Part shown: piece by piece, positions 35,988-56,022 of the stretch
Numbering within the stretch: position 1 is the first letter of the stretch
Layout of the letters: each line of letters opens with the position of its first letter
Source: Nonomuraea sp. NBC_00507
Lineage (GTDB): Bacteria; Actinomycetota; Actinomycetes; Streptosporangiales; Streptosporangiaceae
Assembly: GCF_036013525.1 (NCBI RefSeq)
Contig: NZ_CP107853.1
Span: 8,432,001-8,496,000, forward strand
Direction of reading: 5' to 3'
DNA: 64,000 nucleotides
Translations under genes and position numbers: made by a program
Notes under the pieces: generated by a model
What the model saw: only the letters and a program-made list of their open reading frames with translations
What the model was told of the DNA's origin: nothing
The model's database searches: none

Positions 35988-36101
35988 CCGGCGTCGCGAG
36001 CTGACAGCGCGGCTGGCAGCGCGGCTGGCGTCGCAAGCTGACAGCGCGGCTAGCGTCGCAAGCTGACAGCGCGGCTAGCGTCGCAAGCTGACAGCGCGGC
36101 C
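35988..36101. repeat. About four tandem copies of a 25-bp unit
   Basis: The unit GCGTCGCAAGCTGACAGCGC plus GGCTA is repeated with few changes; the first copies are partial or contain a 10-bp internal duplication. It fills the gap between the convergent VIT1 and LysE genes. No CRISPR-like spacers. Confidence 0.8.
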
Positions 36102-36123
36102 GCCCGGGAACGGCGGACCCGGC

Positions 36124-36762
36124 CTACGGACGGCCGGCGGCAGCGAGCTTGACGCCGAGGCCGATGAGCGCGACCCCGGTCAATCCGTCCACGGCCCGGC
36201 GCACGGCGGGCCTGGCGAACACCTTGCGCAGCGTGCCCACGATGGTGGCCACCACCAGGAACCACAGGACCGTCCCTGCCAGCGCGATCAGCGAGAGCAT
36301 GAGCGTGTCGGCCAGGGAGGCGCCGCCGCTGACGAACTGCGGCACGAGGGCGACGAAGAACAGCGCCGCCTTGGGGTTGAGCGCATTGGTGAGCAGCCCC
36401 TCGGCGAAGGCCGCCCACGGGCTGCGCCGCCCAGGATCGGCCGCCACGTCCAGCGTCGGCTCCCCGCCCCTGCGCAGGGCTGAGCGCAGCGCCTTGACCC
36501 CGAGATACAGCAGGTAGGCCGCGCCGACCACCTTGACCACGGTGAACGCCGCCGCCGAGGCGGCCAGCAGCGCCGCCACGCCGGTGGCCGCGGCCACCAC
36601 CCAGGCGAAGACGCCCACGGAGATTCCGAGCGCGGCAGCCATGCCGTAGCCGCGCCCGGAGACGGCGGAACGTCGTACGACCACCGCGAAGTCCGGACCG
36701 GGCGACATGGCCCCGAGCAACACGACACCACCGAAAGCCACGAACTGCGTCACAGAGCTCAC
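36124..36762 (-). CDS. LysE-family amino-acid exporter (RhtB-like)
   Basis: A 212-residue protein with six TM helices and the family motif GAMSPGPDFAVVVRRS near the N-terminus, then LLTNALNPKAALFFVALVPQF. Exports an amino acid or small metabolite. GTG at 36762 starts directly before the first helix; the longer reading adds an implausible hydrophilic lead. Confidence 0.85.
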   Translation of the reverse strand: MSSVTQFVAFGGVVLLGAMSPGPDFAVVVRRSAVSGRGYGMAAALGISVGVFAWVVAAATGVAALLAASAAAFTVVKVVGAAYLLYLGVKALRSALRRGGEPTLDVAADPGRRSPWAAFAEGLLTNALNPKAALFFVALVPQFVSGGASLADTLMLSLIALAGTVLWFLVVATIVGTLRKVFARPAVRRAVDGLTGVALIGLGVKLAAAGRP

Positions 36763-36797
36763 GACGTTCACTCTATGAGCCCAGACCGCCTTGACCA

Positions 36798-37151
36798 TCA
36801 GCGCTTACGGCGCCGCCTCTTGAAGATGGCGCGCAGGGTCAGCAGTAACACGATCGCGACGGCCTGGCCACCCAGCACGATGCGGTTGACGTCCACAGCG
36901 GGCCGCCACAGGACATCGCCGTCCTTCAGCACGAACACGCCTGCCGGCGTGGCCCCGAAGCCGAATCCGCCGCCGCTGCCCCCGCTCTCCTCGCCCTTCT
37001 CCCCCTTGCCCTCGCCCTGACCGCCGCCGCCTCCGTGGGCGACCCTGGCGACGGGGATGACGACGACGTCGCCGTGCTGGATCGGCTCACCGAAGACTCG
37101 CTTGACGGTTGCGGCGTCCTTCGACCGTTCCACCAGTTCCATGATGTCCAT
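36798..37151 (-). CDS. GerW-family sporulation protein (YtfJ-like)
   Basis: A 117-residue protein: KRVFGEPIQHGDVVVIPVARV, a Gly/Glu/Lys-rich low-complexity middle, then GFGFGATPAGVFVLKDGDVLWRP and a C-terminal hydrophobic helix followed by KRRRRKR. The family is found in spore formers and sporulating actinobacteria. ATG at 37151. Located 35 bp upstream of the LysE gene on the same strand. Confidence 0.82.
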   Translation of the reverse strand: MDIMELVERSKDAATVKRVFGEPIQHGDVVVIPVARVAHGGGGGQGEGKGEKGEESGGSGGGFGFGATPAGVFVLKDGDVLWRPAVDVNRIVLGGQAVAIVLLLTLRAIFKRRRRKR

Positions 37152-37215
37152 TGACCCATCGTCGTCCCCGATCGGCCGATGCACCACCCGCGTGGCGGGT
37201 GTGTCCGTTGTGCGA

Positions 37216-38847
<1,632 letters not shown>

Positions 38848-38886
38848 GCTTCCTCCTCGGGTTGCCAATGACTGATCCATCGTCCC

Positions 38887-38970
38887 TTGACTTGCTCCCC
38901 GGACTGACGACCAGGGATTCCCGTGCCGCTTACGCGGCAGCTCGCGGCGCGTCACCCACGCCGCGAGCTA
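38887..38970 (-). ncRNA. Probable omega-RNA (reRNA) scaffold at the tnpB 3' end
   Basis: TnpB guide RNAs are made from the tnpB 3' end and right end. Here the region holds an 11-bp stem AGCTCGCGGCG / CGCCGCGAGCT (38939-38969), then TGCCGC-TTAC-GCGGCA (38924-38939) spanning the stop codon, then the right-end hairpin. The guide would be the about 16-20 bases beyond 38887, beginning GGGACGATGGATCAGT on the minus strand. Confidence 0.5.
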
Positions 38971-40267
38971 TGGTACGGGGTGCTTGACGCTTCACCGACC
39001 CGGGAGGGTCTCCACGCCCTGACACGACCAGCCCGGCCGCGTATCCTCTGGCTTCGATGTTCTTCGCCGCGTTCACATCAGCGTGCTCGACATGCCCGCA
39101 GGAGGTGCATCGAAAGTCCGCTTGACCCTCGCGGCTCTTCGCGTCCACCGTCCCGCAGAGCGGGTTCGAGCACGTCTGTGACGTGTACGCAGGATCCACG
39201 ACCCGAATCGAGGTCCCGGTGTAGCGGGCCTTGGACCGCAACGCGGTCTCCAGCCCGTACCACCCCTTATCCAGAATCGACTTGTTCAATCCGGCTTTCG
39301 CCGCGCGCCCGTTGGGCAGGTACCCTCCCGGCTTTCCGGGATCGGGCTTCGGCGCGACCGACGCGGTCATCGCCCGGATGTTCAGCTTCTCCAGCGTGAC
39401 GATCGCGTTGTCGCGGGTGAGCCGATGCGCGGTCTGGGCATTGAAGTCCGCGCGCCGCCACCGCGCCCGCCGCATCAGATCGCCCATCGCCCGCACCACC
39501 CGCCGACGCCGGTTCGAGCCCTTCTTCGACCGAGCCAGCTTGCGCTCCAGCCGCCTGTACCGGATGGCCTCACCCGCCGACAGGAACCCCGTCTCGCCCG
39601 GGCCGTCGCCGCCCTCAACCGGCGGCGCTGTCGACGAAACGCCGTCCTCATCGGCGTGCCGGCGGTCGAAGAACTCCCCCTCGCTGGTGACGGCGGCGGT
39701 GACCACCCCCCGGTCGACCCCCACATGCCGGCCGGGACGGGCGTGCTCGCCCACCTCGCCGAGGCCATCGTCGACGAGGAAGCTGATGAACCAATGCTTG
39801 CCATCGCGGGCCACGGTCGCCGACTTCACGCTCCCTCCCAAGGGGCGGGACAGGCGGAACCTTATCCACCCGAACTTCGGCAGGAACACCCGCCCCCACT
39901 TACGATTGATCCGCTCGACCGGGATGTGTTTGGCCGTTGGGAACCGAAAAGACGGCCTCCACCTTGCCTTGCTCTTCCACCGCACCTTCCATGTGCCGTG
40001 CTGGCGGCAGGCGAGATCCAGATCCTTCAGCGTCTGCTGGACGACCTGCGCGGGAGCCTCCGACAACCAGGCACAATCCGGGTCGCTCTTCGCCTCGGCG
40101 AGCTGGCGGCACTGCGCCTCATAGCCGATGAACGCACCCCGGCGCCGATAGGCGCGACGCTGCTCCAAACCGGTGTTCCACACACTGCGGCAGATCCCGC
40201 CCAACCGCTCCGCGAACAGCCGCTGACCGAAATCGAACTCCAAGCAGTACCTCCGACCTGCCAACAC
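38930..40267 (-). CDS. tnpB: TnpB RNA-guided nuclease, IS200/IS605 accessory protein
   Basis: A 445-residue TnpB. N-terminal DNA-binding region ([18 protein letters not shown]), RuvC residues Asp in HVGVDRGVV, Glu in [12 protein letters not shown] and Asp in [11 protein letters not shown], with the zinc-finger pair CSNPLC / CTSCGH between the last two. All three acidic residues are kept, so nuclease activity is plausible. GTG at 40267 with GGAGGT 9 bp upstream matches family starts better than the longer reading. The TAA stop lies within an RNA hairpin. Confidence 0.85.
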
Positions 40268-40513
40268 CAGCGCAACACCTCCCCCACCAGCCACTCTCGC
40301 CCCACGACTCGAACACATCATCCCGTCCGCGAGCCAGCAGACGAAATATCCATACGGTAAGCACGTGGTTACCCACGATGCATGCTCCGCCTGATCAAGA
40401 TGATTGTTTCCAAGCGGTTCGGTGGTCGCAGGCGGTCGGAGTTGGCAGACAGGCTGGCCCTTTCGATCCGGATGCTGACCTGGACGACGTGATGATCTCG
40501 GCGTGTCACGCTC

Positions 40514-42466: not shown

Positions 42467-42706
42467 CACCTCTACCGGCGGGTCAAGCAGAACGTGGCAC
42501 TGGTCTTCGTCTTCAACCGGTGGGCATCCCCGCTGGCGGCTACCGGCATGCTGTATCCGGTGTGGGCCATGGTCGCCGTGGCCGCCTCCGCGACCACGAT
42601 CTTCCTCAACTCCGTCGACGGCCGATCACGGCTGCTGTTCGCCGCCATCGCCATCATCGGCCGCCATCCCACACTTGAGCAAAGCCCCACCTCCGCGCCG
42701 GGATAA
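42467..42706 (+). pseudogene. C-terminal fragment of a heavy-metal P-type ATPase
   Basis: RRVKQNVALVFVFN, SPLAATGMLYPVWAMVAVAAS and TTIFLNSV match the last two TM helices of P1B ATPases. The catalytic region is missing. Possible GTG start at 42431 is only fortuitous. A full CopA-type gene lies 3 kb away, so it may be debris of a paralogue. Confidence 0.6.
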
Positions 42707-43083
42707 CCACCCCGGTAAGGGGGAGGGCGCCGACCGACAACCGATGAGCACTCAAGCAACCGTACGAGGGCGATACCGTGCGGGCCTGGACCCACCGCGA
42801 TGGAGCGCTTGCCTCCATGAAAGACCACGACGGTGCCAGTACCGTGCACAGCGACCGCCATGATGCCGTCGAGTATCGCGGCGCTGCTCGGAGAACAGCC
42901 CGAGCAGGTAGACCCCGCCCCACCCCGCGCCCACCGGCGCGGGCCGTCGGCATGGGCAGCTCGGGCTGCCACCCGGTCAGCACAAGGAACGCCGCTGGCA
43001 GGCGTCGTCCTGAGCAAGTCGTCCCCGAGCAAAAGGTCCCTGCGCAGTTCCCCGGATCCGAATATCTCCTATGAAGCTTAGGT
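42707..43083. other. Non-coding or decayed stretch before the cyclodipeptide synthase
   Basis: No gene recognised in any frame. Short readings are Pro/Arg/Ser-rich, typical of out-of-frame GC-rich DNA. It ends in a more AT-rich promoter-like segment from about 43060. Confidence 0.5.
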
Positions 43084-43098
43084 ACTAAGTTACACAGG
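43084..43098 (+). promoter_or_regulatory. BlaI-like operator upstream of the cyclodipeptide synthase
   Basis: ACTAAGTTACACAGG matches the near-palindrome CCTAAGTTACTTAGG (51436-51450) at 12 of 15 positions. An overlapping CTTAG-GTA-CTAAG dyad lies at 43077-43089. Located 58 bp before the ATG. Confidence 0.5.
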
Positions 43099-43156
43099 AG
43101 AATGATCGGGCGCATACCGAGCGGCGAAAGTGCGACACGACCAGACGGGGGATCGC

Positions 43157-43912
43157 ATGTCAGAGACCAAGGAAAACACCTGCGCTCACGAACCACTACA
43201 GAGAGTGACCCGTAGAGCGCATGACGTACGCTCCGGGCAAGATTTCTCCGTACGACCGATCTCGCCGTCGTGCGTGCGCCTTCTCACCGAGCAGGTCCAT
43301 GCGTGCCTGGGAATAAGCCCGTTCAACAGCTACTTCACCACCGAGCGCATCACCGAACTGACAGCCTGGGCGTTGGACACCTTCACCGCCGTCCACCTGT
43401 TCGTCCCGGACGTGCCCGCTGCTGTGACCCTGCAAGCACTTGGCTACACGCAGGAACGAGCCGCTGCCAAAGCGCGCCGCCAGGCGCGCTACTTGCGCAA
43501 CAAGATCTGCCGTGCTCTGGCCTCCCTAGGCGTGACCGGCCCGGAGGCGATGATCCTCGACTGGGCGGTCCTGTCGCAGAACACCCGCTACCAGGAGTCC
43601 CTGGACGCCACGTACGAGGCGTTCGCATCCGACGAACAGTTCGCCGGCACCTGCGTCGAGGCCAGCCGCTGGGTATTGCAAGGCCGCCTCGAACCGCACG
43701 AGATCACCGCGACCCGGCTGGAGACCGCCGTGGACTACCTGCTCGCCGAACTACCGCTGTTCCTCGACACGGCGGCGATCGTGGGCCGGCCCGCCTCGGT
43801 GTTCTGCTACCACCAGTCGACCGGCTTCCTTGAGCGGCTTTACGCCCGGGAACTACCGATGAAGCCGGCCGACCGACAGGGCTTCGTCGTTGTCCCGCCG
43901 GAACTCAGATGA
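43157..43912 (+). CDS. tRNA-dependent cyclodipeptide synthase (NYH subfamily)
   Basis: A 251-residue CDPS, which uses two aminoacyl-tRNAs to make a 2,5-diketopiperazine. Catalytic Ser54 in GISPFNSYFT, Tyr194/Glu198 in DYLLAELPLF, and Tyr218 in CYHQST match AlbC Ser37, Tyr178/Glu182 and Tyr202 with the same spacing. Asn57 with Tyr218-His219 defines the NYH type. The basic helix AAAKARRQARYLRNKICRAL would bind tRNA. ATG at 43157 has GGGGG upstream. No oxidase, P450 or methyltransferase is adjacent. Its end overlaps the convergent M56 peptidase gene by 8 bp. Product amino acids cannot be read by eye. Confidence 0.88.
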   Translation: MSETKENTCAHEPLQRVTRRAHDVRSGQDFSVRPISPSCVRLLTEQVHACLGISPFNSYFTTERITELTAWALDTFTAVHLFVPDVPAAVTLQALGYTQERAAAKARRQARYLRNKICRALASLGVTGPEAMILDWAVLSQNTRYQESLDATYEAFASDEQFAGTCVEASRWVLQGRLEPHEITATRLETAVDYLLAELPLFLDTAAIVGRPASVFCYHQSTGFLERLYARELPMKPADRQGFVVVPPELR

Positions 43913-44855
43913 TCATGCAGTAGTCCTGGGCAGCCGCGACCACCGCAGGCGTGACCGCGATAATCAGCGGCGTCACCGCCGCGGCAAGCGCAAGAACACC
44001 GGCCGGGACGATGACCGCCGCCTTCAACGGAGCCGTGCGGACCAGAAGCCTCCGTACGCGGTGCCCCGTGTCACGACCGGACGCAGCCAGCGCGGACCGG
44101 GGGGTCACCTGACCGTCGGCCAGCCTCAGCAGCGCGTCGGCGACGGTCAACCGGTCGGCGGCCTTGACGGCGACATCGTCGGCGGCCAGTTCGGTCAATC
44201 GGCCGATCTCCCGCGCGGCCAGCCTGAACAGCAGTACCCGCGGAAAGGCCCGCTTCACGCCCCGGGCCACCGCCACCACCAGGTGGTGATGCCCGCGCAG
44301 GTGGGCCCGTTCGTGGGCGAGCACCGCCGCCAACTGACGGTCGTCGAGGGCGGCCAGCGTCGAGGTGGTCAGTACGATCCGGCCACCTCCGCCAGGTAGG
44401 CAGTAGGCGGCGGCGATGTCATGATCCAGCACCAGCGCACCGAGCGCCGTGTCCCGGCGGGCCACCATCTCCAAAACCGCCACGTGCCGCCGCCGCTCGC
44501 CGCCGGCGGCCACCAGTTCGAGACTGATGCCGTAGAGCAGCCGTCCTATGATCCCGACAGAGACCACAAGTCCCACAGTGGCCACCAGCGCCCCGCCTGG
44601 GGTGGCATAAGCGGCGCGCACCATGAGCACGCACGCGTTGAGGAACTGCGCCAGATCAGCGCCGGGCGCGCTGACCGGTATTACCACCGTCAATCCTGCC
44701 AAGACGGCCGCTCCCACGACCGCCGCGCTGAGCGACTGCCAGCACAGGATGGCCAGCCGCGGCGCTCGGTCCAGCCATACGGCTCGGCGCAGAACGAGCG
44801 GGCCCAGCACGGCGACGGCGACGCCGTACGCCAGCAGGATGAGGGCGACGTTCAC
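43905..44855 (-). CDS. M56/BlaR1-like membrane metalloprotease
   Basis: A 316-residue membrane protein with TM segments at residues about 4-22, 37-60, 85-110 and near 270-300. The zinc motif LAHERAHLRGHH (HExxH) has a downstream Glu in ELAADDVAVKAADR. It lacks the external penicillin-binding sensor of true BlaR1, like the M. tuberculosis Rv1845c type. It overlaps the BlaI gene by 4 bp; the pair likely forms a signal-protease/repressor unit. What it senses is unknown. Confidence 0.85.
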   Translation of the reverse strand: MNVALILLAYGVAVAVLGPLVLRRAVWLDRAPRLAILCWQSLSAAVVGAAVLAGLTVVIPVSAPGADLAQFLNACVLMVRAAYATPGGALVATVGLVVSVGIIGRLLYGISLELVAAGGERRRHVAVLEMVARRDTALGALVLDHDIAAAYCLPGGGGRIVLTTSTLAALDDRQLAAVLAHERAHLRGHHHLVVAVARGVKRAFPRVLLFRLAAREIGRLTELAADDVAVKAADRLTVADALLRLADGQVTPRSALAASGRDTGHRVRRLLVRTAPLKAAVIVPAGVLALAAAVTPLIIAVTPAVVAAAQDYCMII

Positions 44856-45238
44856 TGGACGGACTCATCCGATCTGGCCGCGTCCAGCAGCGCTCGCAGT
44901 TGGGCGACCTCGCCCTGATCCATCCGCTCGACGAACCGCGCCAGGGCGGCGGTCCGATCCAAGCTCGCATCCAAAGCGTCGGCCATCAGCCCGGCCACGT
45001 AGTCTTCGCGGCTGGCCTTGGCCCAATACAGGTAGGCGCGACGCTTCAGCTCCCTGTCCACCCATCCCTTGCGGTAAAGAATCTCCATCACGGTCTGCAC
45101 GGTGGTGTAGGCCAGCTCGCGCTCCTGGCGTAGCCGAGTGAGCACCTCGCGCACCGGCAGCGGGCCATCGGCCGCCCACATCACGTCCATGATGGCGGAC
45201 TCCAGGTCACCCAATCCCCGCACCATTCTGCCGCTCAC
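44852..45238 (-). CDS. blaI: BlaI/MecI/CopY-family repressor
   Basis: A 128-residue protein with the family winged helix (LGDLESAIMDVMWAADGPLPVREVL, AYTTVQTVMEILYRKGWVDRE, AYLYWAKASREDYVAGLM) and a C-terminal dimer helix. Dimers bind dyad operators and are inactivated by the partner protease. GTG at 45238 is taken as start; the ATG at 45226 is an alternative. A near-palindrome overlaps the promoter upstream, implying autoregulation. Confidence 0.88.
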   Translation of the reverse strand: MSGRMVRGLGDLESAIMDVMWAADGPLPVREVLTRLRQERELAYTTVQTVMEILYRKGWVDRELKRRAYLYWAKASREDYVAGLMADALDASLDRTAALARFVERMDQGEVAQLRALLDAARSDESVQ

Positions 45239-45269
45239 GCCTCCAGGCCCGTCTTTCGCACCCTAATCA

Positions 45270-45284
45270 CCTAAGTTCCATAGG
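45270..45284 (-). promoter_or_regulatory. BlaI-like operator upstream of blaI
   Basis: CCTAAGTTCCATAGG, 13 of 15 identical to the best site at 51436-51450. On the minus strand it overlaps a TATGGA-like -10 element, 32 bp before the GTG, as expected for autorepression. Confidence 0.55.
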
Positions 45285-45363
45285 CAAACTTACCTGTCCG
45301 ATGACATCGATGTGGTGCCTACGGGCACGCCGGGTACTGCGGCCATGCCGTGCAGAACGGCCA

Positions 45364-45733
45364 TCAGACTCTTCTCGGGTACCGCATCGCGTACTTGCGA
45401 GCGAACGCCGGCAGGCTAAGCGTCCGGCCTGCCCAGCCACGCAAATCAGCGCCGGAGTGTCCGCCCGGCACGGCGCACACAGCGACCCCAGTAGTTGCCC
45501 ACCACCACCTTGCCCAGCAGCGTGCCGACCTCGAAGGCGCGCCCGCCCAGGTCCGTGCCGCGCGACTCAGAGGCGATCGTGCGTTCACTAGCTTGGAGCG
45601 CCTCGGACGCCACGGCCGTCCCCGACACCCGCAAGTGGGAGCTGTCGACCTGCTGCCCGGCGCAGGCGAACACAACCATGACGATCCCGGTGGCAGCCGC
45701 CACGGTCCTGATCCGCTTGCGAGGGGCCGTGAC
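45364..45733 (-). pseudogene. Broken TlpA/ResA-like thiol-disulfide lipoprotein gene
   Basis: From GTG 45733: a lipoprotein signal (GIVMVVFACAGQQ), then DLGGRAFEVGTLLGKVVVGNYWG, which is the start of a redoxin domain. The catalytic WCxxC should follow but the text changes to RCVRRAG. A later family piece, FARKYAMRYP, is in another frame near 45375-45400. Deletion and frameshift have removed the active site. Confidence 0.6.
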
Positions 45734-45752
45734 GTCCCCCGGAGCCCTCGGC

Positions 45753-48428
45753 TTACCGCACCTTGGCGAGGAACGCATCGCGGCAGCCCGTCGAGCAGAA
45801 CCATTCGGTCACGCCGGCGTGCTCGACAGAAGCAGCAGCGGTAGCGGGCTCGACCTGCATGCCGCAGATCGGGTCGGTGACGGTCGCGGGTTCCGCACCG
45901 GTTTCCACCCTGACCTCCAGGTCGGCCGATACAGATGAGGCCCGGGGAAGGTGAGGGGCGGTGAAGCGGCGCAGCCGGTTGGCGTTGCCGACCACCGACA
46001 GCGAGGACAGCGCCATCGCCGCCGCGGCGATGATCGGGCTGAGCCGGATACCGAAGAACGGGTAGAGGACGCCGGCCGCGATCGGGATGCCCACCACGTT
46101 GTAGACGAAGGCCAGGAACAAGTTCTGGCGGATGTTGCGCATGGTGGCCTTGGACAGCCGGATCGCGGTGACCACGCCGCCGAGCGCCCCGGAGATCAGC
46201 GTGACGTCGGCGGCCTCGATGGCCACGTCGGTCCCGGTGCCGATGGCGAATCCCACGTCGGCCTGGGCCAGGGCGGGGGCGTCGTTGATGCCGTCGCCGA
46301 CCATGCCGACGCGCCGGTTCTCGCCCTGTAGCCGGGCGATCTCGGCGGCCTTATGCTCCGGCAGCACCTCGGCCAGCACCCGGGTGATGCCCACCTGGCG
46401 GGCGATCGCCTCGGCGGTCCGGGCGTTGTCGCCGGTGATCATCACGACGTCCAGGCCGAGGTCCTGGAGCGCGGCCACCGCGTCGCGGGAGCCTTCCTTG
46501 ATCGTGTCGGCCACCGCCAGCACCCCTGCGGGTCCGCCATCGACGGCGGCCAGGATCGAGGTACGGCCGGCCGCGGCGAACTCGCCGGCCGCCTCCTCCA
46601 GGGCGGCAACCTCCACGCCCTCCTCAGCCAGGAAGCGGGAGCGGCCGACGAGCACCTCGTGCCCGCCTGCGGTGGCCCGGATTCCCTTGCCGGTCACCGA
46701 GTCGAAGTCAGTCACCTCCGGAATGTTCAGGCCACGCTCGTCGGCCCCTCGGGCGATCGCCTCACCCAGGAGGTGCTCCGACGACCGCTCGGCGGCCGCC
46801 ACCAACGCCAGCAGGTCGTCCTCGGCCCACCTGTTCGTCGGCGCCACATCGGTGAGGGCGGGCTGGCCACGGGTGATGGTGCCGGTCTTGTCCAGCACCA
46901 TGGTGTCCAGCTTGTGCGCGGTCTCCAGCGACTCGGCATCCCGGATCAAGATCCCAGCCTGAGCACCTTTTCCGGTCCCGACCATCACCGACAGCGGAGT
47001 GGCCAGGCCAAGCGCGCACGGGCAGGCGATGATCAGGACGGCGACCGCCGCCACCAGGGCCAGGGTGAATGCGGGCGGGGGCCCGGCGACGAACCAGACG
47101 GCGAAGGAGACGATCGCAATGGCGATGACGGCGGGCACGAAGTAGCCGGACACCAGGTCGGCCAGGCGTTGGATGGGTGCTTTGGAGGCTTGGGCCCGTC
47201 GGACCAGAGTGATGATCTGGGCGAGCATCGTCCCCGCGCCGACCTTGGTGGCCTCGAACCGGAACGCGCCGGTCTGGTTGACGGTCGCGCCGACCACCTC
47301 ATCGCCCACCCCCTTGGTCACCGGGATGGATTCGCCCGTCACCATGGATTCGTCCAGCGTGGAGCGGCCGTCGACGATGACGCCGTCCACCGGCACCTTC
47401 TCACCCGGCCGGACGACGATGACGTCGCCGGGCATGACTTGCTCGATCGGAACTTCGGCCTCGGTGCCGTCGCGCAGCACGCGGGCGGTCCTGGCCTGAA
47501 GCCCGATCAGCGCGCGGATAGCCTCGCCGGTGCCCGCCTTGGCCTTGGCCTCGAACAGCCGGCCGAGCAGGATCAGCGTGAGGATCACTCCGACGGCCTC
47601 GTAGTAGACGTTACGGACGTCCTCAGGCAGCAGGCCGGGAGCGGCGGTGGCCAGCAGGCTGTAGCCGTAGGCGGCCGAGGTTCCCAGCGTGATGAGCGCG
47701 TTCATCTCCGCGCCCCGGTGGGCCAGGGTCAGCCAGCCGATCCGGTGGATGGGCCAGCCGGTGTAGAACATCACCGGTGTGATCAGCAGCAGTTGCACCC
47801 ACGGGTTCAGCAAGAGGCCCGGCACCCATCCTGCGCCGAAGACCTCGTGCGCCATCACCGCCACCGCCACCGGCGCCGTGAGGACCGCGCCGACGAGCAC
47901 CCGCCGGGACAGGTCGGCGATCTCCGCGCGACGCTCGGCGGCCTCGCCGTTCTCCGCCTCGCCCGCACCCACCGCGAGTTCGCCGCCTTCGGCGGCACGC
48001 TCAACGCGCCGGGCCGGTTCGGGGGCGCTCTGGGGCGCGCCCCCGTCGCCGGAGTCCGGCTCGACGATCAACTTCCCACGGACCATGTTCATGCCGCAGG
48101 CAAAGCCGTACTCACCGGCACGATTTGGCATCAGCTCCACGGTGGTCTTGCCGAACGCCGGCAACGCCTTGCTCGTCCCGAAGTCCGGGAAGACCACCTG
48201 AGAGGTGCACTCCCCGCTCTCGCGCCGGTCGAACGTGATGCGCAGCGGCACGCCCTGCCGTACTCGAATCTGGTCCGGCGAGTAGCCGCCCTTGACCGTG
48301 ATTTCGACCTCCTGGGCGCCCTCGCGCACCTCGGCGAGTCTGGCCTTCTTCGGCCCGAAGAAATACCAGGCCAGAAACCCGAGGAGGCCCACCGAACCGA
48401 CCAGGACCCCGATCTCTGAACCGGTCAT
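45753..48428 (-). CDS. Copper-type P1B ATPase with N-terminal cupredoxin-like and C-terminal YHS domains
   Basis: An 891-residue fusion. One TM anchor (residues 5-20) and a cupredoxin-like domain (about 40-125: [32 protein letters not shown]) precede a full CopA core. The core has actuator TGES, intramembrane CPC (ACPCALGLA, near 469), DKTGT (near 514), HP motif SSEHLLGEA and [10 protein letters not shown]. The C-terminal 40 residues are a YHS domain ([18 protein letters not shown]). It pumps Cu+ (or Ag+) out with ATP. ATG 48428 with AAGGGG upstream; the promoter holds two different operators. Confidence 0.9.
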
Positions 48429-48457
48429 GTCGTCACCCCTTCGGTGCGTCTACTCAC

Positions 48458-48502
48458 AGAATACCCATATGGGGTATTTCAGCGTCAACTAAACACCTTA
48501 GG
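48458..48502 (-). promoter_or_regulatory. Promoter of the copper ATPase with CsoR-type dyad and BlaI-like site
   Basis: On the minus strand: -35 TTGACG (48483-48488), a 19-bp spacer, -10 TATTCT (48458-48463). The spacer holds AATACCC-N5-GGGTATT (48460-48478), a dyad typical of CsoR (or, with a 19-bp spacer, MerR/CueR) operators. ACTAAACACCTTAGG at 48488-48502 matches the BlaI-like site at 10 of 15 positions and touches the -35. Confidence 0.55.
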
Positions 48503-48529
48503 CGAATAGGACAGAGATCGGGTGACAGG

Positions 48530-48829
48530 TCAGCCCATCATGCCCGAGCCGTGCTGGGACATTCCGCCCATCATCGAGCCGGACATCATGTCCTCCATCT
48601 GCTGGCGGGCCTTGTCACGTTGATCAGCCGGCAGGTGGTCGGTGCAGTGCCGGATCATGGCATCTCGGTCCATGCCATCGTGGTTGCCATTGGGCGTCGG
48701 AGTGGACGTCGCACTCGGCGTCGGAGCGGGTGCCGGTGTCGCCGCAGACGCCGTGGCAGCACCGTAAACGCTGGCGCCGCCGAGAAAGGTCGCGGCCACT
48801 GCGAGCCCGATGACCTTACGCCTGATCAT
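48530..48829 (-). CDS. Small secreted Met/His-rich protein, possible copper binder
   Basis: A 99-residue protein: signal peptide (IGLAVAATFLGGASVYGAATASA), Pro/Thr linker, a helical part (MIRHCTDHLPADQRDKARQQ) and a Met-rich tail (MMSGSMMGGMSQHGSGMMG). Methionine-rich tails bind Cu+ in other exported proteins (established for CopC/CusF-like and PcoE-like proteins); here it is inferred from composition and from the adjacent copper ATPase and two-component genes. Confidence 0.7.
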   Translation of the reverse strand: MIRRKVIGLAVAATFLGGASVYGAATASAATPAPAPTPSATSTPTPNGNHDGMDRDAMIRHCTDHLPADQRDKARQQMEDMMSGSMMGGMSQHGSGMMG

Positions 48830-48877
48830 GATGTGCTCCTCTCATTCGAATCCTCACCCAGGACGCTAGGCAGGCGG

Positions 48878-48895
48878 TGTGAAGGATCTGTGAAG
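48878..48895. promoter_or_regulatory. Direct-repeat response-regulator box
   Basis: TGTGAAG-GATC-TGTGAAG: two heptamers 11 bp apart, the one-turn phasing of OmpR/PhoB-type binding sites. It lies between the divergent Met-rich protein gene and the two-component operon and could control both. Confidence 0.5.
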
Positions 48896-48989
48896 AGGCC
48901 GTGTGCGAGCTCTGTGGCCGGTCGCCGCGGTGCGGACCAGGCTGCTCGGTGAGGGGAGAATCGGAGGTATCCACGCGAAGGAGGGTCGC

Positions 48990-49688
48990 ATGACCAGCAC
49001 CGTTCTCGTCATCGACGACGAGCCGAAGCTTCGCCGCCTGGTCAAGGACTACCTGGAGCGTGATGGGTTCATCGTCTTGGAGGCTGGCACAGGGCGACGG
49101 GCTCTGGAGCTGATCGCCGCGGGCCGACCCGATCTGGTGATCCTCGACCTGGGGTTGCCGGACCTGCCTGGGGAGGAGGTGGCCCACCTGGTACGCCGGG
49201 ACAGCGACGTGCCGATCGTGATATTGACCGCCAAAGCCGGCGAGAACGACCGGGTGATGGGGCTGCGCCTCGGCGCCGACGACTACGTCGTCAAACCGTT
49301 CAGCCCGCGCGAGCTCGTGGCCCGGGTCGAGGCCGTGCTACGTCGCACCCGCGCCGGCCGTACCGCCGAGCTGGAAATCGCCTCCTACGGGGGCGGACGC
49401 CTGTCGATCGACGCCGAGCGGCGCGAGGTACGCGTGGACGGCGAGCCAATCACGCTCACCCGTACCGAGTTCGACCTGCTGGCCGCGCTGGCTTCGCGCC
49501 CGGGCCGCGCCTGGACTCGGCTGGAACTCACCTCCCGGGTGCAGGGTTACGACTTCGAGGGATACGAGCGCACCATCGACGTGCACGTGAAGAACCTGCG
49601 CCGCAAGCTCGGCGACACCCCGCCGTCGCAGCTGATCCTCACCACACCGGGCGTCGGCTACAAGCTCGGGGTCGAGCGCGATGCGTGA
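48990..49688 (+). CDS. OmpR/PhoB-family response regulator
   Basis: A 232-residue regulator. Receiver domain with acidic pair DDE at 10-12, phospho-Asp in LVILDLGLPDL, Thr in VILTAK and Lys in VVKPFSP. The C-terminal winged helix has LTRTEFDLLAALASRPGRAW and YERTIDVHVKNLRRKLGD. ATG at 48990 with AAGGAGG upstream. It overlaps the sensor kinase gene by 8 bp. Confidence 0.92.
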   Translation: MTSTVLVIDDEPKLRRLVKDYLERDGFIVLEAGTGRRALELIAAGRPDLVILDLGLPDLPGEEVAHLVRRDSDVPIVILTAKAGENDRVMGLRLGADDYVVKPFSPRELVARVEAVLRRTRAGRTAELEIASYGGGRLSIDAERREVRVDGEPITLTRTEFDLLAALASRPGRAWTRLELTSRVQGYDFEGYERTIDVHVKNLRRKLGDTPPSQLILTTPGVGYKLGVERDA

Positions 49689-51045
49689 TCTGCTGCGCGG
49701 CCCGTTCGCCCGCCGACTCGCCCTGGCCTTCGCCGCCCTCGGCCTCGGGGCGGCGGCGCTGACCGCGCTCCTGGTCAACGCGGCTTTCGGGGCTCGATTC
49801 GACGACTATCTCGCCGACCAACAGCACGTGCGCGAGCAGCAGTTGGCCGCACTCTTCGCCGACAGCTACGAGCGTGAGAGCAGCTGGGATCAGCGATCGC
49901 TGGACGAATTGGCGCCGAGCCTTGCCATGACCGGATCCCAGGCGGAGCTCCGCGGACCGAACGGACAGCTCATCTGGTCCCTCGATCCCGGCATGGCGGA
50001 GATGCACCAGGAGATGATGGGCACCAGCCCGCCCGGGCCGCCTCGCGACGTGCCGATCATGGTGGACGAACGCCGCGTCGGCACGTTGACCATCCGGCTC
50101 CCGCAGGGTGCGATCCCCGCCGTGGACAGGGAGTTCCGCACGGCGGTCAACTGGTTGCTGATCGCCGGCGGCATGGCCGCCGGGCTTGTGGCGCTCGCCA
50201 CGGGCTTGTTCTTCGCACGCCGCGCCACGGCGCCGATCATTGAGCTAACTCGGGCCGTCGACGATCTGGCTGCCGGACATCGGGACCGGCGCGCCGCGCT
50301 ATCGTCTCGCGATGAGATCGGCAGGCTCGCCACGGCGTTCAACACCATGGCTGACCGCGTCGAGAAGGAAGACGAGCTGCGTCGCCTGTTCGCCGCTGAC
50401 GTGGCGCATGAACTGCGCACCCCGCTGGCGATCCAGCGCAGCCAGATCGAGGCCATCCAGGACGGCATCGCCGAACCTACATCCGAGGTCATCGACTCCC
50501 TGCACGAGGAGACCCTCCGGCTGAGCCGACTCGTCGCCGACCTGGAAACGCTGGCTTCGGCGGATGCGGCGGCCTTCACACTGGACCGCGGGACGCTGGC
50601 CCTGGACGCGCTTGTGGAGGAGACCGTCGCCGGGCTCGCCGGACAGTTCACGGAGGCGGGAATCGCGCTACGCACCCACCTGGCCAAGGTGCGGGTGGAC
50701 GGCGACGCGGTACGACTGCGCCAGGTCGTCACCAACCTGCTCACCAACGCCCTCAAGTTCGTCCCTGCCGAGGGCGCCACCACCGTCACCCTGCGGCGCG
50801 TCGGTGGACGAGCGGAGTTGAGCGTCGCCGACACCGGGATCGGCATCCCCGACGACGAGCTCCCCCACGTCTTCGACCGGTTCTTCCGCGGCAAGGCCGC
50901 CCGCGCCAGAGGCTCCGGCATCGGCCTGGCCGTCGTCGCCGAACTCGTCGCAGCTCACCACGGCCAGGTCACCGTGGAGAGCCGGGCGGGACATGGAACC
51001 ACCTTCACGGTCGTTCTGCCCGCCTGCGATGAGGCGGCACGGTAG
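49681..51045 (+). CDS. Membrane sensor histidine kinase
   Basis: A 454-residue kinase: TM1 (residues about 10-35), a 110-residue extracytoplasmic sensor, TM2 (near 155-180), HAMP, HisKA with phospho-His in DVAHELRTPLAIQRS, and a complete ATPase (NLLTNALKF N box, DTGIGIPDDEL G1, FDRFFRGK F, GSGIGLAVV G2). The sensor contains MAEMHQEMMGTSP, a Met/His cluster that could bind copper; together with the Met-rich neighbour this suggests copper sensing (inference). Confidence 0.9.
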   Translation: MRDLLRGPFARRLALAFAALGLGAAALTALLVNAAFGARFDDYLADQQHVREQQLAALFADSYERESSWDQRSLDELAPSLAMTGSQAELRGPNGQLIWSLDPGMAEMHQEMMGTSPPGPPRDVPIMVDERRVGTLTIRLPQGAIPAVDREFRTAVNWLLIAGGMAAGLVALATGLFFARRATAPIIELTRAVDDLAAGHRDRRAALSSRDEIGRLATAFNTMADRVEKEDELRRLFAADVAHELRTPLAIQRSQIEAIQDGIAEPTSEVIDSLHEETLRLSRLVADLETLASADAAAFTLDRGTLALDALVEETVAGLAGQFTEAGIALRTHLAKVRVDGDAVRLRQVVTNLLTNALKFVPAEGATTVTLRRVGGRAELSVADTGIGIPDDELPHVFDRFFRGKAARARGSGIGLAVVAELVAAHHGQVTVESRAGHGTTFTVVLPACDEAAR

Positions 51046-51161
51046 CCGACGCCCCGTTAACCGATGTCAGCCCGACGAGCGACACCGAATACGTAGTTGC
51101 TGCCGACGGGACTTCGCCAGTCTGGCCCGCACCCACCGCGAACTCATCCGTATCCCACCAC

Positions 51162-51422
51162 CTACCCGATGCCTCCACCCATGGAGTGGCCGGTCGCCGA
51201 GGAATTTCTCGCGAAGCGCGACGAACTCGAATGGCACACCTGATGACCTGCGCGTTGCCATCGACCCGGACGGCAGGGTCGGGCGTCCCGCAGGTAACCC
51301 GGCACCAACGGCAGACAGCACGGAGAGGCGAAGGTGATGGCACCCGCCGCCAGCGCGATCGGCGCGGCCAGCAACAGCGGACCGGCGGTGACCACCTCAG
51401 AGACATCCGACAACATCAACAC
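51162..51422 (-). pseudogene. 5' remnant of a CcdA/DsbD-like thiol transporter gene
   Basis: The first about 45 residues (GPLLLAAPIALAAGAITFAS, PCCLPLVPGYLRD) match the start of CcdA, with its PC motif in TM1. After LRD the text becomes Arg/Ser-rich and unrelated, so the other five helices are gone. The BlaI-like dyad lies 14 bp before its start. The gap 51046-51161 holds nothing recognised. Confidence 0.6.
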
Positions 51423-51435
51423 GACCGCCTATACG

Positions 51436-51450
51436 CCTAAGTTACTTAGG
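51436..51450. promoter_or_regulatory. Best copy of the BlaI-like operator
   Basis: CCTAAGTTACTTAGG, two perfect 7-bp arms around one central base. Immediately upstream of the ccdA remnant on the minus strand, where TATAGG could be the -10. Confidence 0.6.
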
Positions 51451-52254: not shown

Positions 52255-53028
52255 TCACAGCAGCGCACCCGCGGCGACCACGGGCGCCAGCGCCAGCACA
52301 GTCCAGGCGAACCAGCGGTGCACCTGCCCAGCCGGCAGCCGTGCGGCTATGCGTCCCGCGGCCAGGGAGGTGAGCAGGGCCGTGCCGGCGAAGGCGGCCA
52401 CGATGCCGTAATCCAGGTGCGCACCAGCGTGTCCGGCGAACCCGGCCGCCGAGTTGATCAGGATGATGACCAGCGAGGTGCCGACGGCCTCGGTGGCGGT
52501 CAGGCCGAGCAGCAGGCTGAGCGCGGGCACGACGGCGAATCCGCCGCCGACGCCGAGCACGCCGGTCATGAGCCCTACTCCGGCGCCCGCGGCGAGCGTG
52601 CGCGGCAGGCAGCGGCGGCGGTTGATCCGTCCCGTTTCGGTACGGCAGGCGCCGCCGCTGGACTCCCGGCCGCGGAGCATGCGTACGGCCACCACGGCCA
52701 TGATGACGGCGAAGGCGGGCAGCAGCAGCGCGTCCGGCAGGCCGCGGCCGAGGAGCGCGCCGGCCAGCGCGGCGGGAACGCCGCTCACGGCGAACACGGC
52801 GGCCACGCTCCAGCGCACCTGCCGCCCGCGCAGGCGTGGGATGAGGGCGCCGATGCTGGAGACGGCCACGACGACCAACGCGGTCGGGATCGCGACCGCC
52901 ATGGGCTGGCCGGCGCCGTACACCAGCACGGGCACGGCCAGCACCGAGCCGCCCGCGCCGAGCAGGCCGAGGCTGACGCCCACGACCACGGCGCCGATCA
53001 GCACCAGGGCGAGCGTCGCCGTCGTCAT
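52255..53028 (-). CDS. TauE/SafE (TSUP) sulfite or sulfur-oxyanion exporter
   Basis: A 257-residue membrane protein with two repeated halves, each beginning with a Gly-rich TSUP motif ([40 protein letters not shown]). In cst operons this family exports sulfite/thiosulfate or related products. ATG 53028 overlaps the rhodanese gene stop (ATGA). Last gene of the sulfur operon. Confidence 0.85.
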
Positions 53029-53585
53029 CGGCGACAGGCCTGCGCGAGCGCGGCGGCGGGGTCGGTGGCGGCCGCCCGGTTGTACGGCAGCCGGGCCAGC
53101 AGCAGTCCCATCGTGCAGGTGTCGCTCGCCCCGGCATAAGTCAGCCCGGCCCCGACGAAGGCGGTGACGAGCAGGCTCCAAGGCGTCAGGAGGCTCAGCA
53201 GGACTGAGACGAGGACCAGCAGACCGGCCACGAGACGGACCTGCCGTTCCAGGCTCCAGCGCTGCCGACCGCGGGTGACGGGCGCGCCGGACGCGAGCCA
53301 GGCGTTCATGCCGCCGGTCATGACCAATGACGTGGACAGCCCTGCCCCGGCCAGCATGGCGTGCGCGGTGCTGGCCCGGGCGCCGGACTGGCAGACGAGC
53401 ACGACTTGGCCGGGCGCGGCGTCGCTGAGCTGGGGAAGATGGCCCTGCAGCCGGTCCAGGGGCACGTTCACGGCGCCGTCGATGTGCGCGGTCTCGAACT
53501 CGGCGGGGGTACGCACGTCCAGCAGCAGAACGTCGGCATCGGTGGCGGTCATGGCGCGGGTGGTGGCCACGTCGATGGTGGTCAA
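53025..53585 (-). CDS. Rhodanese fused to a DUF2892 membrane domain
   Basis: A 186-residue protein. Residues 1-105 are a rhodanese with active-site Cys in [10 protein letters not shown] and substrate motif [16 protein letters not shown]. The C-terminal part has two TM helices ([33 protein letters not shown]) and [14 protein letters not shown], as in DUF2892. It transfers sulfane sulfur at the membrane. TTG start at 53585 with GGAGA upstream. Confidence 0.85.
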
Positions 53586-53648
53586 GAGGGGTTCTCCGTT
53601 CAGATGGTCGGGACTACTCAGACGGCAGGTTCGACCGGTCGGGGCTGC

Positions 53649-54971
53649 TCAGGCGGCCAGTGCGGCGGCGACCTGAGGGGCTCCGGCTCCGGTGAGCACG
53701 ACGGGCTCGAAGCCGTGGCGGGTCAGGATGGTGGCGGCGATGGCGGCGCGGCGGCCGGAGCCACAGGTCACCAGGACCGGCCGGCCCGGGTCCAGTTCGG
53801 CGGGGATGCCGTCGGTGAGCAGGTCCGGCAGGAAGCGCTCGCTCGCGCCCGGCAGCGGGGCGGCACTGCGTTCGCTGGGCATGCGCACGTCCAGGACCTG
53901 GGCGCCGGTCAGCCGTTCCAGGAACGCCGGCAGCTCGGCCAGCTCGAAGCGGGCGGTGGCGGCCGTGCCGAGGTCGTGGATGACGCCGCGCACGTCGTCG
54001 AGTCCGATCCTGGCGAGCTGGGTGCGGGCTTCGGCGACGTCCTGGCCAGGCTCTGCCACCAGGGCGATCGGCTCGCCGTACCGCAGCAGCCAGCCGGCCC
54101 AGCTGCCGAAGTCCTCACCGAGCTCGATGCCGGTCGCGCCGAGCAGGAACCCGGCGGCCTGCGCGGCCCGGGGCCGGATGTCGAGCACCTGCTCCTCATC
54201 GGTCAAATCGGCCACCGTGATCTCGGGCAAATCCGAGCTTGGAACCGAACGTGCGCCGAGGAGGTTGGCCGGCCCCATGTGCGCGTAGAAGGCGGGGATG
54301 GGCATGGGCTCAGCCAGCAGCTCGTCGGCGAGCGCATCAGCGGAGGGCAGCGCGAGGAGCGGGTTGCCGTCCTGCTCGGCGCCGATGGTGGAGGTGTAGC
54401 GGCCCGCGCCGGTCGTGGTGCAGAACGATCCCTCGCCGTGCGTCGGGAACAGGCCGACGTCGCGGGGCAGCGCGGCCAGCCGGTGCAGCGAGCCGTACTG
54501 CAGCCTGGCCAGAGTGCCGGCGCGCTCAGGCCCGAGCAGGTCGGGACGACCGGCCGAGGCCACCAGCAGACTGCCCCCAGAGAACACCGCCACCGGCTCC
54601 CCGTCGATCAGCACCAGATAGCTGGTGTGCTCAGGCGTGTGCCCAGGAGTATGCATCGGCCGAATACTCAGGCTGTCGCCGCCGTCCAGGTCCTCCAGGT
54701 GAAAGGCCGGCGTGTGCGGATATGAGGCCGCCGCGCCAGCCGGCAGCACCAGCTCCGCGCCAGTACGCAAAGCGGCATGGCGCGCGCCGGAGACGTAGTC
54801 GTTGTGTAGATGAGTTTCCAGCACGTACCGCAGCTCCAGGTCGCGTTCCGCCGCGACGTCCAGGAACCGGTCGATGTCACGCTGCGGATCGACGAGCACA
54901 CCCTTGCCTTCATGGGCGAGCAAGTAGCTCTGGTCGCCCAGTCCAGGCGTGCGAAACGTGACGATCTCCAT
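53649..54971 (-). CDS. MBL-fold persulfide-dioxygenase-like enzyme with rhodanese domains (CstB-like)
   Basis: A 440-residue protein. The N-terminal metallo-beta-lactamase fold has LETHLHNDYVSGARHA, MHTPGHTPEHTSY and an FSGGSLL ligand region, the Fe(II) persulfide dioxygenase pattern. Two rhodanese-like domains follow; the first has no Cys loop, the second has VTCGSGRRAAIAA. CstB-type enzymes turn persulfide into thiosulfate/sulfite. ATG 54971 with GGAAGGA upstream. The operator lies 26 bp further up. Confidence 0.87.
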   Translation of the reverse strand: MEIVTFRTPGLGDQSYLLAHEGKGVLVDPQRDIDRFLDVAAERDLELRYVLETHLHNDYVSGARHAALRTGAELVLPAGAAASYPHTPAFHLEDLDGGDSLSIRPMHTPGHTPEHTSYLVLIDGEPVAVFSGGSLLVASAGRPDLLGPERAGTLARLQYGSLHRLAALPRDVGLFPTHGEGSFCTTTGAGRYTSTIGAEQDGNPLLALPSADALADELLAEPMPIPAFYAHMGPANLLGARSVPSSDLPEITVADLTDEEQVLDIRPRAAQAAGFLLGATGIELGEDFGSWAGWLLRYGEPIALVAEPGQDVAEARTQLARIGLDDVRGVIHDLGTAATARFELAELPAFLERLTGAQVLDVRMPSERSAAPLPGASERFLPDLLTDGIPAELDPGRPVLVTCGSGRRAAIAATILTRHGFEPVVLTGAGAPQVAAALAA

Positions 54972-54996
54972 CCGAGTCTTCCTTCCACAGCTCAAG

Positions 54997-55010
54997 TACC
55001 CTGGGGGGTA
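54997..55010. promoter_or_regulatory. CstR/CsoR operator of the sulfur operon
   Basis: TACCCTGGGGGGTA: arms TACCC/GGGTA with 4-bp spacer. On the minus strand it overlaps a TATACC -10 element. It is the exact reverse complement of the site at 55343-55356. Confidence 0.75.
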
Positions 55011-55073
55011 TATGACAGGCACAATCTGGCCCTTCGGGCGTTCGACGAGGATCCCGACGACCCTCTAGGCGCG

Positions 55074-56022
<949 letters not shown>

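Follow-up and report, generated by a model that had tools for sequence, protein, structure and literature searches.

A dyad of BlaI type putatively joins a cyclodipeptide synthase gene, blaI-blaR and copper/thiol genes in Nonomuraea sp. NBC_00507

Within a 64,000-nucleotide stretch of the genome of Nonomuraea sp. NBC_00507 (contig NZ_CP107853.1, positions 8,432,001 to 8,496,000; hereafter the window), a gene for a cyclodipeptide synthase (CDPS) was found beside a blaI-blaR pair, a copper P-type ATPase gene (copA) and a remnant of ccdA, with dyads of one family upstream of the CDPS gene, blaI, copA and the ccdA remnant (Table 1). The BlaI repressor encoded here probably represses the CDPS gene, its own operon and copper/thiol genes through the palindrome CCTAAGNWNCTTAGG, with repression relieved by a BlaR that would sense something other than a beta-lactam, perhaps the copper or thiol state. 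This proposal rests on features read from sequence, namely the operator family, the gene linkage, the protein families, the lack of a penicillin-binding sensor domain in BlaR and the cysteines in its tail.

Putative BlaI operators in the window

Four sites had been listed by an earlier, sequence-only reading of this DNA, and each was found as described: a perfect 7-bp dyad at 51436, a site at 45270 matching it at 13 of 15 positions, one at 43084 (12/15) and one at 48488 (10/15, read on the plus strand). Compared with the reverse complement, the last of these matches at 11 of 15 positions. A second dyad in the CDPS promoter, CCTATGAAGCTTAGG at 43068, had been missed. Together with the 43084 site it forms a tandem with dyad centres 16 bp apart and half-sites in an 8-bp register, the centres preceding the CDPS start by 55 and 39 bp, and the same 16-bp tandem was found upstream of ccdA in loci L164 and L168. 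The gene identities given in that reading (CDPS, BlaI, an M48/M56-type protease and a copper ATPase) also stood, except that its ccdA proved to be a stub of 39 residues.

When up to three mismatches to the dyad were allowed, 6 strand matches were obtained in the window against 0.05 in shuffled sequence. A matrix built from 30 sites, all from genomes other than that of the window, placed the five dyads at ranks 1 to 5 of the 64 kb (43068, 29.5; 45270, 28.8; 51436, 28.4; 48488, 21.7; 43084, 16.3), followed by a match overlapping the copA site (15.1) and by position 9572 (12.0). Four sites scored at least 18, where 0.005 are expected per 64 kb from shuffles made by approximate first-order resampling, and none of 200 shuffles contained a position scoring as high as the copA dyad. 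The dyads are genuine and lie far beyond chance. It is therefore extremely improbable that short AT-rich dyads have merely clustered by accident in a genome of 70% GC; raw motif counts below those of reversed-pattern controls, in the genome of the window (G000) and in nearly all genomes scanned, favour such an accident, and the observed scores and the placement of dyads at blaI and CDPS loci of other genomes argue against it.

Recurrence of the dyad at other CDPS loci

A CDPS match was detected in 55 of the 341 genomes of the family. The closest relatives of the window CDPS (53–57% identity) are encoded at three loci, two in G134 and one in G062, each of which was found to contain a BlaI homologue (44–51%), a BlaR homologue (45–48%) and the same dyads, accompanied variously by full-length CcdA, SCO1, redoxin and cupredoxin proteins. 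In L091 the CDPS and blaR genes are convergent and overlapping, as they are in the window, where the ends of the two genes overlap. The combination of CDPS, blaI/blaR and dyad was present in Streptosporangiaceae, Streptomycetaceae and Pseudonocardiaceae. The dyads of Streptomyces cellulosae (L025/L165) and Streptomyces sp. TRM68367 are found with blaI-blaR, ccdA, DUF305, DUF3105, VKOR, SCO1, redoxin and CopC-CopD genes. Across the relatives, dyads precede blaI, ccdA, redoxin, SCO1 and CopC-CopD genes as well as a gene for a secreted protein, and the ccdA genes that carry the dyad elsewhere are fuller than that of the window. In Pseudonocardiaceae (L240, and the near-identical L241 and L243 from two genomes) the CDPS gene is preceded by a variant dyad; no other site scores 14 or more in L241 and L243, where this dyad sits between the divergent CDPS and blaI-blaR genes.

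To quantify this linkage, 70 CDPS loci with 1.5-kb flanks were used, comprising the best 30 of one match list, all 10 of a second and the best 30 of 56 of a third, with a dyad defined as a matrix score of at least 14 and genes called by a simple open reading frame caller with rough starts. A dyad was present in all six loci having BlaI and/or BlaR within 1.5 kb and in one of the 64 without (Fisher 5e-8); after removal of the three loci used in training the matrix, the counts were 3/3 and 1/64 (Fisher 8e-5). Of 15 loci with a blaI, 8 have a dyad 30–100 bp ahead of that gene; of 12 loci with a CDPS gene, 8 have one directly before it, a number that includes the near-identical L241 and L243 and the weak site of L242.

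In a phylogenetic tree the window CDPS fell with the blaI-linked and copper-ATPase-linked CDPS in one 57-row branch (support 93/88, not starred). The tree requires two changes of the blaI-linked label and does not show these CDPS to have arisen only once. An L167 dyad was considered as a copA promoter site and rejected, as it lies downstream of CopA.

It should also be noted that in four Streptomyces loci (L018, L019, L022 and L023) a CDPS of the same clade is closely followed by a copper ATPase, 47–49% identical to the window CopA, with neither BlaI nor dyads; this arrangement is a further link between CDPS and copper. A membrane protein with no assigned name, some 440 residues long and 74–79% identical among loci, occurs in CDPS-blaI clusters (L090:13176-14510, L091:10996-12333, L092:4205-5530) next to a cupredoxin-like protein; it had no Pfam match in L090 and L091 and no NCBIfam match in L090. 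A probably secreted protein with an HFHAHLDxxVDG-like segment was found at L092:6437-7186 and L095:6172-6888, at the C-terminus of L091:9280-10458, and in L019 and L022. Dyads lie 42–50 bp upstream of its gene in L092 and L095, and nothing above cut-off was obtained for it in NCBIfam. On a single 10.6-kb contig of an Acidobacteria metagenome-assembled genome (L029), pieces of a CDPS were present with BlaI-like and redoxin-like stretches, hinting at an association beyond actinobacteria.

Genome-wide counts and placement

In the 12.9-Mb genome G000, the dyad with up to three mismatches gave 19 strand hits at 16 places, against 52 strand hits for the reversed-pattern control. As the raw count falls below the control it is no evidence in itself, and the signal lies in clustering, 4 of the 16 places being inside 8.4 kb. 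This was the genome-wide motif search that the sequence-only reading had proposed, and its raw frequency goes against that reading; in relatives, dyads were found at their blaI-blaR and CDPS loci. With CCTAAGNNNCTTAGG and at most one mismatch, six sites were found in G000 (reversed control, 7), the highest number among 54 genomes of the genus; the other genomes have 0–4 sites each, 19 of them none. Three of the six are in the window locus and a fourth is close to a blaI paralogue, 27 kb beyond it. In G165, G170 and G172, genomes of the same genus with the closest blaI orthologues (70–74%), every site with at most one mismatch (1/1, 1/1 and 2/2) is at the blaI-blaR locus.

Placement gave a similar picture in the genomes of the closest CDPS relatives. 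With up to two mismatches, 32 sites were found in G134 (6.1 Mb), of which six lie in the first CDPS region (Poisson 5e-10) and four in the second (Poisson 2e-6), each region spanning 16.5 kb, and 27 in G062, with three in the CDPS region (Poisson 4e-5); the reversed controls (170 and 177) exceed these totals, which are themselves not enriched. Each genome has one perfect site, located inside a CDPS region; that of G062 is at the promoter of the CDPS gene. Among ten CDPS-bearing genomes, nine sites with at most one mismatch were found in S. cellulosae, nine in TRM68367 (on four contigs) and 0–2 in each of the other eight. Seven of the nine S. cellulosae sites fall within one 50-kb stretch of the CDPS contig, the bounds of which were drawn after the fact.

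A further G000 dyad, C1:8510743, lies between genes for a GH25 protein and an M15 carboxypeptidase (L096:13821-15759, equal to C1:8509821-8511759), near a blaI/blaR paralogue whose BlaR has the tail HHCH. A single site, CCTAATGATCTTAGG, recurs across many genomes of the genus that have no close blaI orthologue, for example in L176, L179 and L181.

BlaI and its recognition helix

Of 14 dyad-linked BlaI proteins, 12 have the motif VQTVM in the recognition helix, so that it is not common to all of them; the six other aligned BlaI do not have it, nor does Rv1846c. The solved sequence closest to the window BlaI is 2g9w, which we take to be Rv1846c.

The helix bears on whether the dyad is bound not by this BlaI but by another regulator, such as a trans-acting repressor of copper or redox type. 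That idea finds some ground in a CsoR-like box in the copA promoter, in a weak dyad upstream of a CDPS gene with no adjoining blaI (L242) and in one perfect site each in G141 and G154, of the same genus, which have no close blaI orthologue. It is nevertheless very unlikely in view of the dyads at blaI promoters, found in three genomes at the blaI locus only, and of the distribution of VQTVM; moreover, the L242 genome has a blaI at its other CDPS locus, L243.

BlaR and its possible signal

The window BlaR is a protein of 316 residues that ends shortly after its last hydrophobic stretch with the tail QDYCMII, and no Pfam match to a penicillin-binding sensor domain was detected in it. The 14 aligned BlaR proteins are 314–356 residues long, all with HExxH, and this length leaves no room for such a domain. 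Library scans for the sensor domain covered the window BlaR (Pfam) and that of L166 (NCBIfam), the other BlaR being judged by length, and membrane segments were judged by eye. A cysteine is present in the tail of 13 of the 14 (single, CC or HHCH). In BlaR1, both termini are described as being outside with the protease facing inside (PMC9834060, in part); by this topology the Cys-bearing tail would face outward. Mycobacterial BlaR also has no sensor domain, and its mode of sensing is called open in part of PMC5473688. The sigC gene is named in the BlaI regulon of Mycobacterium tuberculosis (PMC8265638, in part) and SigC is described as acting against copper starvation (PMC7924339, in part). Such a BlaI-sigC-copper link would be a parallel to the present case, not proof of it.

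The dyads could also be BlaI operators that serve a response to beta-lactam or cell-wall stress, with the CDPS and copper genes as incidental passengers of a mobile region. Classical BlaI/BlaR pairs do respond to beta-lactams, the dyad at C1:8510743 lies between GH25 and M15 carboxypeptidase genes near a blaI paralogue, and S. cellulosae has two dyads between redoxin-like and L,D-transpeptidase genes (L163). This explanation is considered unlikely, as the 14 BlaR leave no room for a penicillin-binding domain, the CDPS-blaI-dyad linkage recurs in three families and many of the dyad targets are copper/thiol genes.

The CDPS and its predicted product

By alignment, the window CDPS has S, Y, E, Y and H at AlbC positions 37, 178, 182, 202 and 203. 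Pocket motifs were read after PMC5816076 (in part), with our own position mapping checked on Rv2275. The pocket of the window CDPS, CGFPWLFF, is near the Pro or Leu motifs of that source, and those of L090–L092, CGYPS(L/F/M)FF, are near its Cys-assigned motif, the Cys-incorporating (cCX) group having a P1 motif like VGYPSIFF. The predicted dipeptide of some relatives may contain Cys, in which case it would be a thiol. Against the cyclodityrosine synthase model the window CDPS scored 147.7 bits, below the NCBIfam cut-off of 300. A P450-tailored cYY pathway was rejected, as a haem-motif scan of 20 sequences matched only a CDPS, spuriously.

Proposed mechanism and points weighed

From these features we infer binding, derepression, the signal and a role for the dipeptide as follows. 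BlaI would bind the palindrome CCTAAGNWNCTTAGG, which is at times doubled, its half-sites then recurring at 8-bp intervals, and would so repress its own operon, the adjacent CDPS gene and copper/thiol genes, which here would be copA and the now truncated ccdA and in relatives ccdA, redoxin, SCO1, CopC-CopD and secreted-protein genes. BlaR is a membrane metalloprotease with no beta-lactam sensor, and its short Cys-bearing C-terminus would face outward. Copper or thiol/disulfide stress at this tail may activate the protease, leading to cleavage of BlaI, and the cyclic dipeptide would then be made along with copper and thiol handling proteins. The sequence-only reading had suggested that the BlaI/BlaR pair may govern the CDPS gene together with copper/thiol genes. 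The matrix ranking, the placement of sites, the recurrence in three families and the helix motif support this suggestion, with the amendments that ccdA is a stub here, that copA may be under two controls and that BlaR has no beta-lactam sensor domain.

Several observations weigh against this explanation. The agreement of the dyad cores is partly built in, because the training sites of the matrix were chosen by likeness to the window consensus; this effect does not extend to where the sites lie, to the bases beside the core (A/T at −3 and −2, T at +16) or to the held-out loci, and the AT-rich flanks may reflect promoters in general. Seven of the 15 blaI-bearing loci have no dyad within 100 bp of blaI; in L094 and L095 the dyad precedes a neighbour of blaI, and in L241/L243 it is 340 bp from blaI. 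No dyad was found directly before the CDPS gene in L165 (S. cellulosae), L167, L169 and L244, and the S. cellulosae CDPS gene (L025:7962-8678) has an in-frame TGA where L024 has Trp, a pseudogene or a sequencing error. A dyad in the copA promoter was seen in this window only, and most CDPS of the clade (a 36-row branch) have neither blaI nor copper genes within 1.5 kb. To these are added the perfect sites of G141 and G154 and the dyad-linked BlaI of L166 and L240, which do not have VQTVM; the helix contrast is further weakened because the L096 BlaI, also without the motif, has a dyad about 2 kb away. The tail of the L093 BlaR has no Cys, and that the tail cysteines act as a copper or thiol sensor is something we only infer. 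Finally, the window locus looks partly decayed.

A more specific version of the proposal is put forward tentatively and must be regarded as doubtful: the sensor-less BlaR may read the extracytoplasmic copper/thiol state by its Cys tail and switch on, through BlaI, a cyclic dipeptide that binds or buffers copper. If true, a copper ligand made by a CDPS would be under a penicillinase-type switch, and this would suggest what sensor-less BlaR proteins, those of mycobacteria included, respond to. More broadly, the data suggest that a familiar switch of the penicillin-resistance type has been put to new use in several soil actinobacteria. The operator compared across genomes defines a concrete, assayable candidate regulon in which a small-molecule gene is joined to the handling of copper and disulfides, and the Cys-tail hypothesis is offered for the signal of BlaR without a penicillin sensor.

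Other features of the window

Table 1. Coordinates of the predicted genes and sites in the window
Feature	Position	Strand	Remarks
Tandem BlaI-type dyads, CDPS promoter	43068..43098	+	CCTATGAAGCTTAGG 43068-43082; ACTAAGTTACACAGG 43084-43098
CDPS, NYH type	43130..43912	+	PF16715 236.7 bits; TIGR04539 269.6 bits; catalytic residues present
BlaR-like M48/M56 membrane metalloprotease	43905..44855	-	HERAH motif; Pfam M48 49.4 bits (cut-off 20.3), M56 26.1 bits (cut-off 31)
BlaI-family repressor	44852..45238	-	PF03965 96.8 bits (cut-off 22.6); 128 residues; recognition helix AYTTVQTVMEILYRKGW
Possible TlpA-like redoxin remnant, degenerate, copA-blaI interval	45237..45703	-	tblastn, weak
Putative BlaI operator, blaI-blaR promoter	45270..45284	.	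CCTAAGTTCCATAGG; centre 39 bp upstream of blaI
Copper P-type ATPase (copA)	45753..48428	-	TIGR01511 611.7 bits
CsoR-like box, copA promoter	48462..48476	.	TACCCATATGGGGTA; putative
Weaker BlaI-type dyad upstream of copA	48488..48502	.	ACTAAACACCTTAGG; centre 67 bp from copA start
ccdA stub	51291..51407	-	39 residues; 85% identity to full-length CcdA of L090, no match beyond
Perfect dyad upstream of ccdA stub	51436..51450	.	CCTAAGTTACTTAGG; 7-bp perfect arms

In the copA product a cupredoxin domain was found at the N-terminus, and the C-terminus gave a YHS match that stays under the Pfam cut-off. The box in the copA promoter is presumably CsoR-like, and on this account copA may have two controls. 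The possible redoxin remnant consists of two collinear pieces matching the L090 redoxin (30% and 25% identity, E 0.007), and a match to the C-terminus of a copper ATPase was obtained at 42476-42571 (E 0.004).

The same-species genome G182 is 98% identical over window positions 36070-40474, with further pieces to about 41037. Past this end of synteny no counterpart of the CDPS, blaR or window blaI genes was found in G182, and the region is therefore taken to be variable and partly decayed. The dyad was not found at the CopA homologue (73% identity) of G182. A TnpB/OrfB-like transposon protein, read by eye from the sequence, is encoded at 38930-40321, near the end of G182 synteny. At 52255-55370, rhodanese, MBL-type and TauE-like genes (read by eye, with NCBIfam matches below cut-off) are followed by a CsoR-family gene (PF02583), and CsoR-like boxes lie by this group at 54997 and 55343; we take the group to resemble a persulfide operon.

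Comparison with known systems

Among the matches listed from the open-licence literature, subscription journals being mostly outside the search, none describes a CDPS as part of a BlaI regulon. Nor did the matches listed there bear on the link under CDPS and copper, diketopiperazines and chalkophores, BlaI/BlaR and CcdA in Streptomyces, or BlaI/CopY and copper in actinobacteria. In the main text, as available, of a survey of CDPS neighbourhoods (PMC5767969), neither 'copper' nor 'ATPase' occurs. The window CDPS shares its family and catalytic residues with Rv2275-like and other NYH CDPS and differs from the Rv2275-like enzymes in its pocket, which reads CGFPWLFF (CGYPSxFF in L090–L092) in place of the cYY motif.

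CopY/CopR repressors belong to the same Pfam family as the window BlaI and are likewise linked to copper genes. CopY has a Cys-rich metal-binding C-terminus, or metal hook; the 128-residue window BlaI contains no Cys and therefore has no hook of this type, and its NCBIfam CopY score is 31.7 against a cut-off of 122. The CopY/CopR operator is given as TACANNTGTA (PMC7253601, in part), and an operator of this type was rejected, with 0 matches in the window at up to one mismatch. The M. tuberculosis pair BlaI (Rv1846c)/BlaR (Rv1845c) provides the nearest solved BlaI sequence (2g9w) and a BlaR that is also sensor-less (PMC5473688, in part). It differs in the recognition helix, TVMAVL as opposed to TVQTVM here, and in its targets, named in the source parts available as blaC, ATP synthase genes and sigC, with no CDPS among them; those parts give no operator motif for this BlaI.

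The BlaI/MecI operators of staphylococci and bacilli are of the TACA/TGTA type, in contrast to CCTAAGN3CTTAGG here, and BlaR1 and MecR1 have an extracellular C-terminal penicillin-binding sensor domain that the window BlaR does not have. With BlaI/BlaR1 and MecI/MecR1 the present system nevertheless shares a PF03965 repressor adjoining an HExxH membrane protease, and dyads at a target gene beside the pair as well as at the operon of the repressor, the target here being a CDPS with copper/thiol genes in place of a beta-lactamase or penicillin-binding protein.

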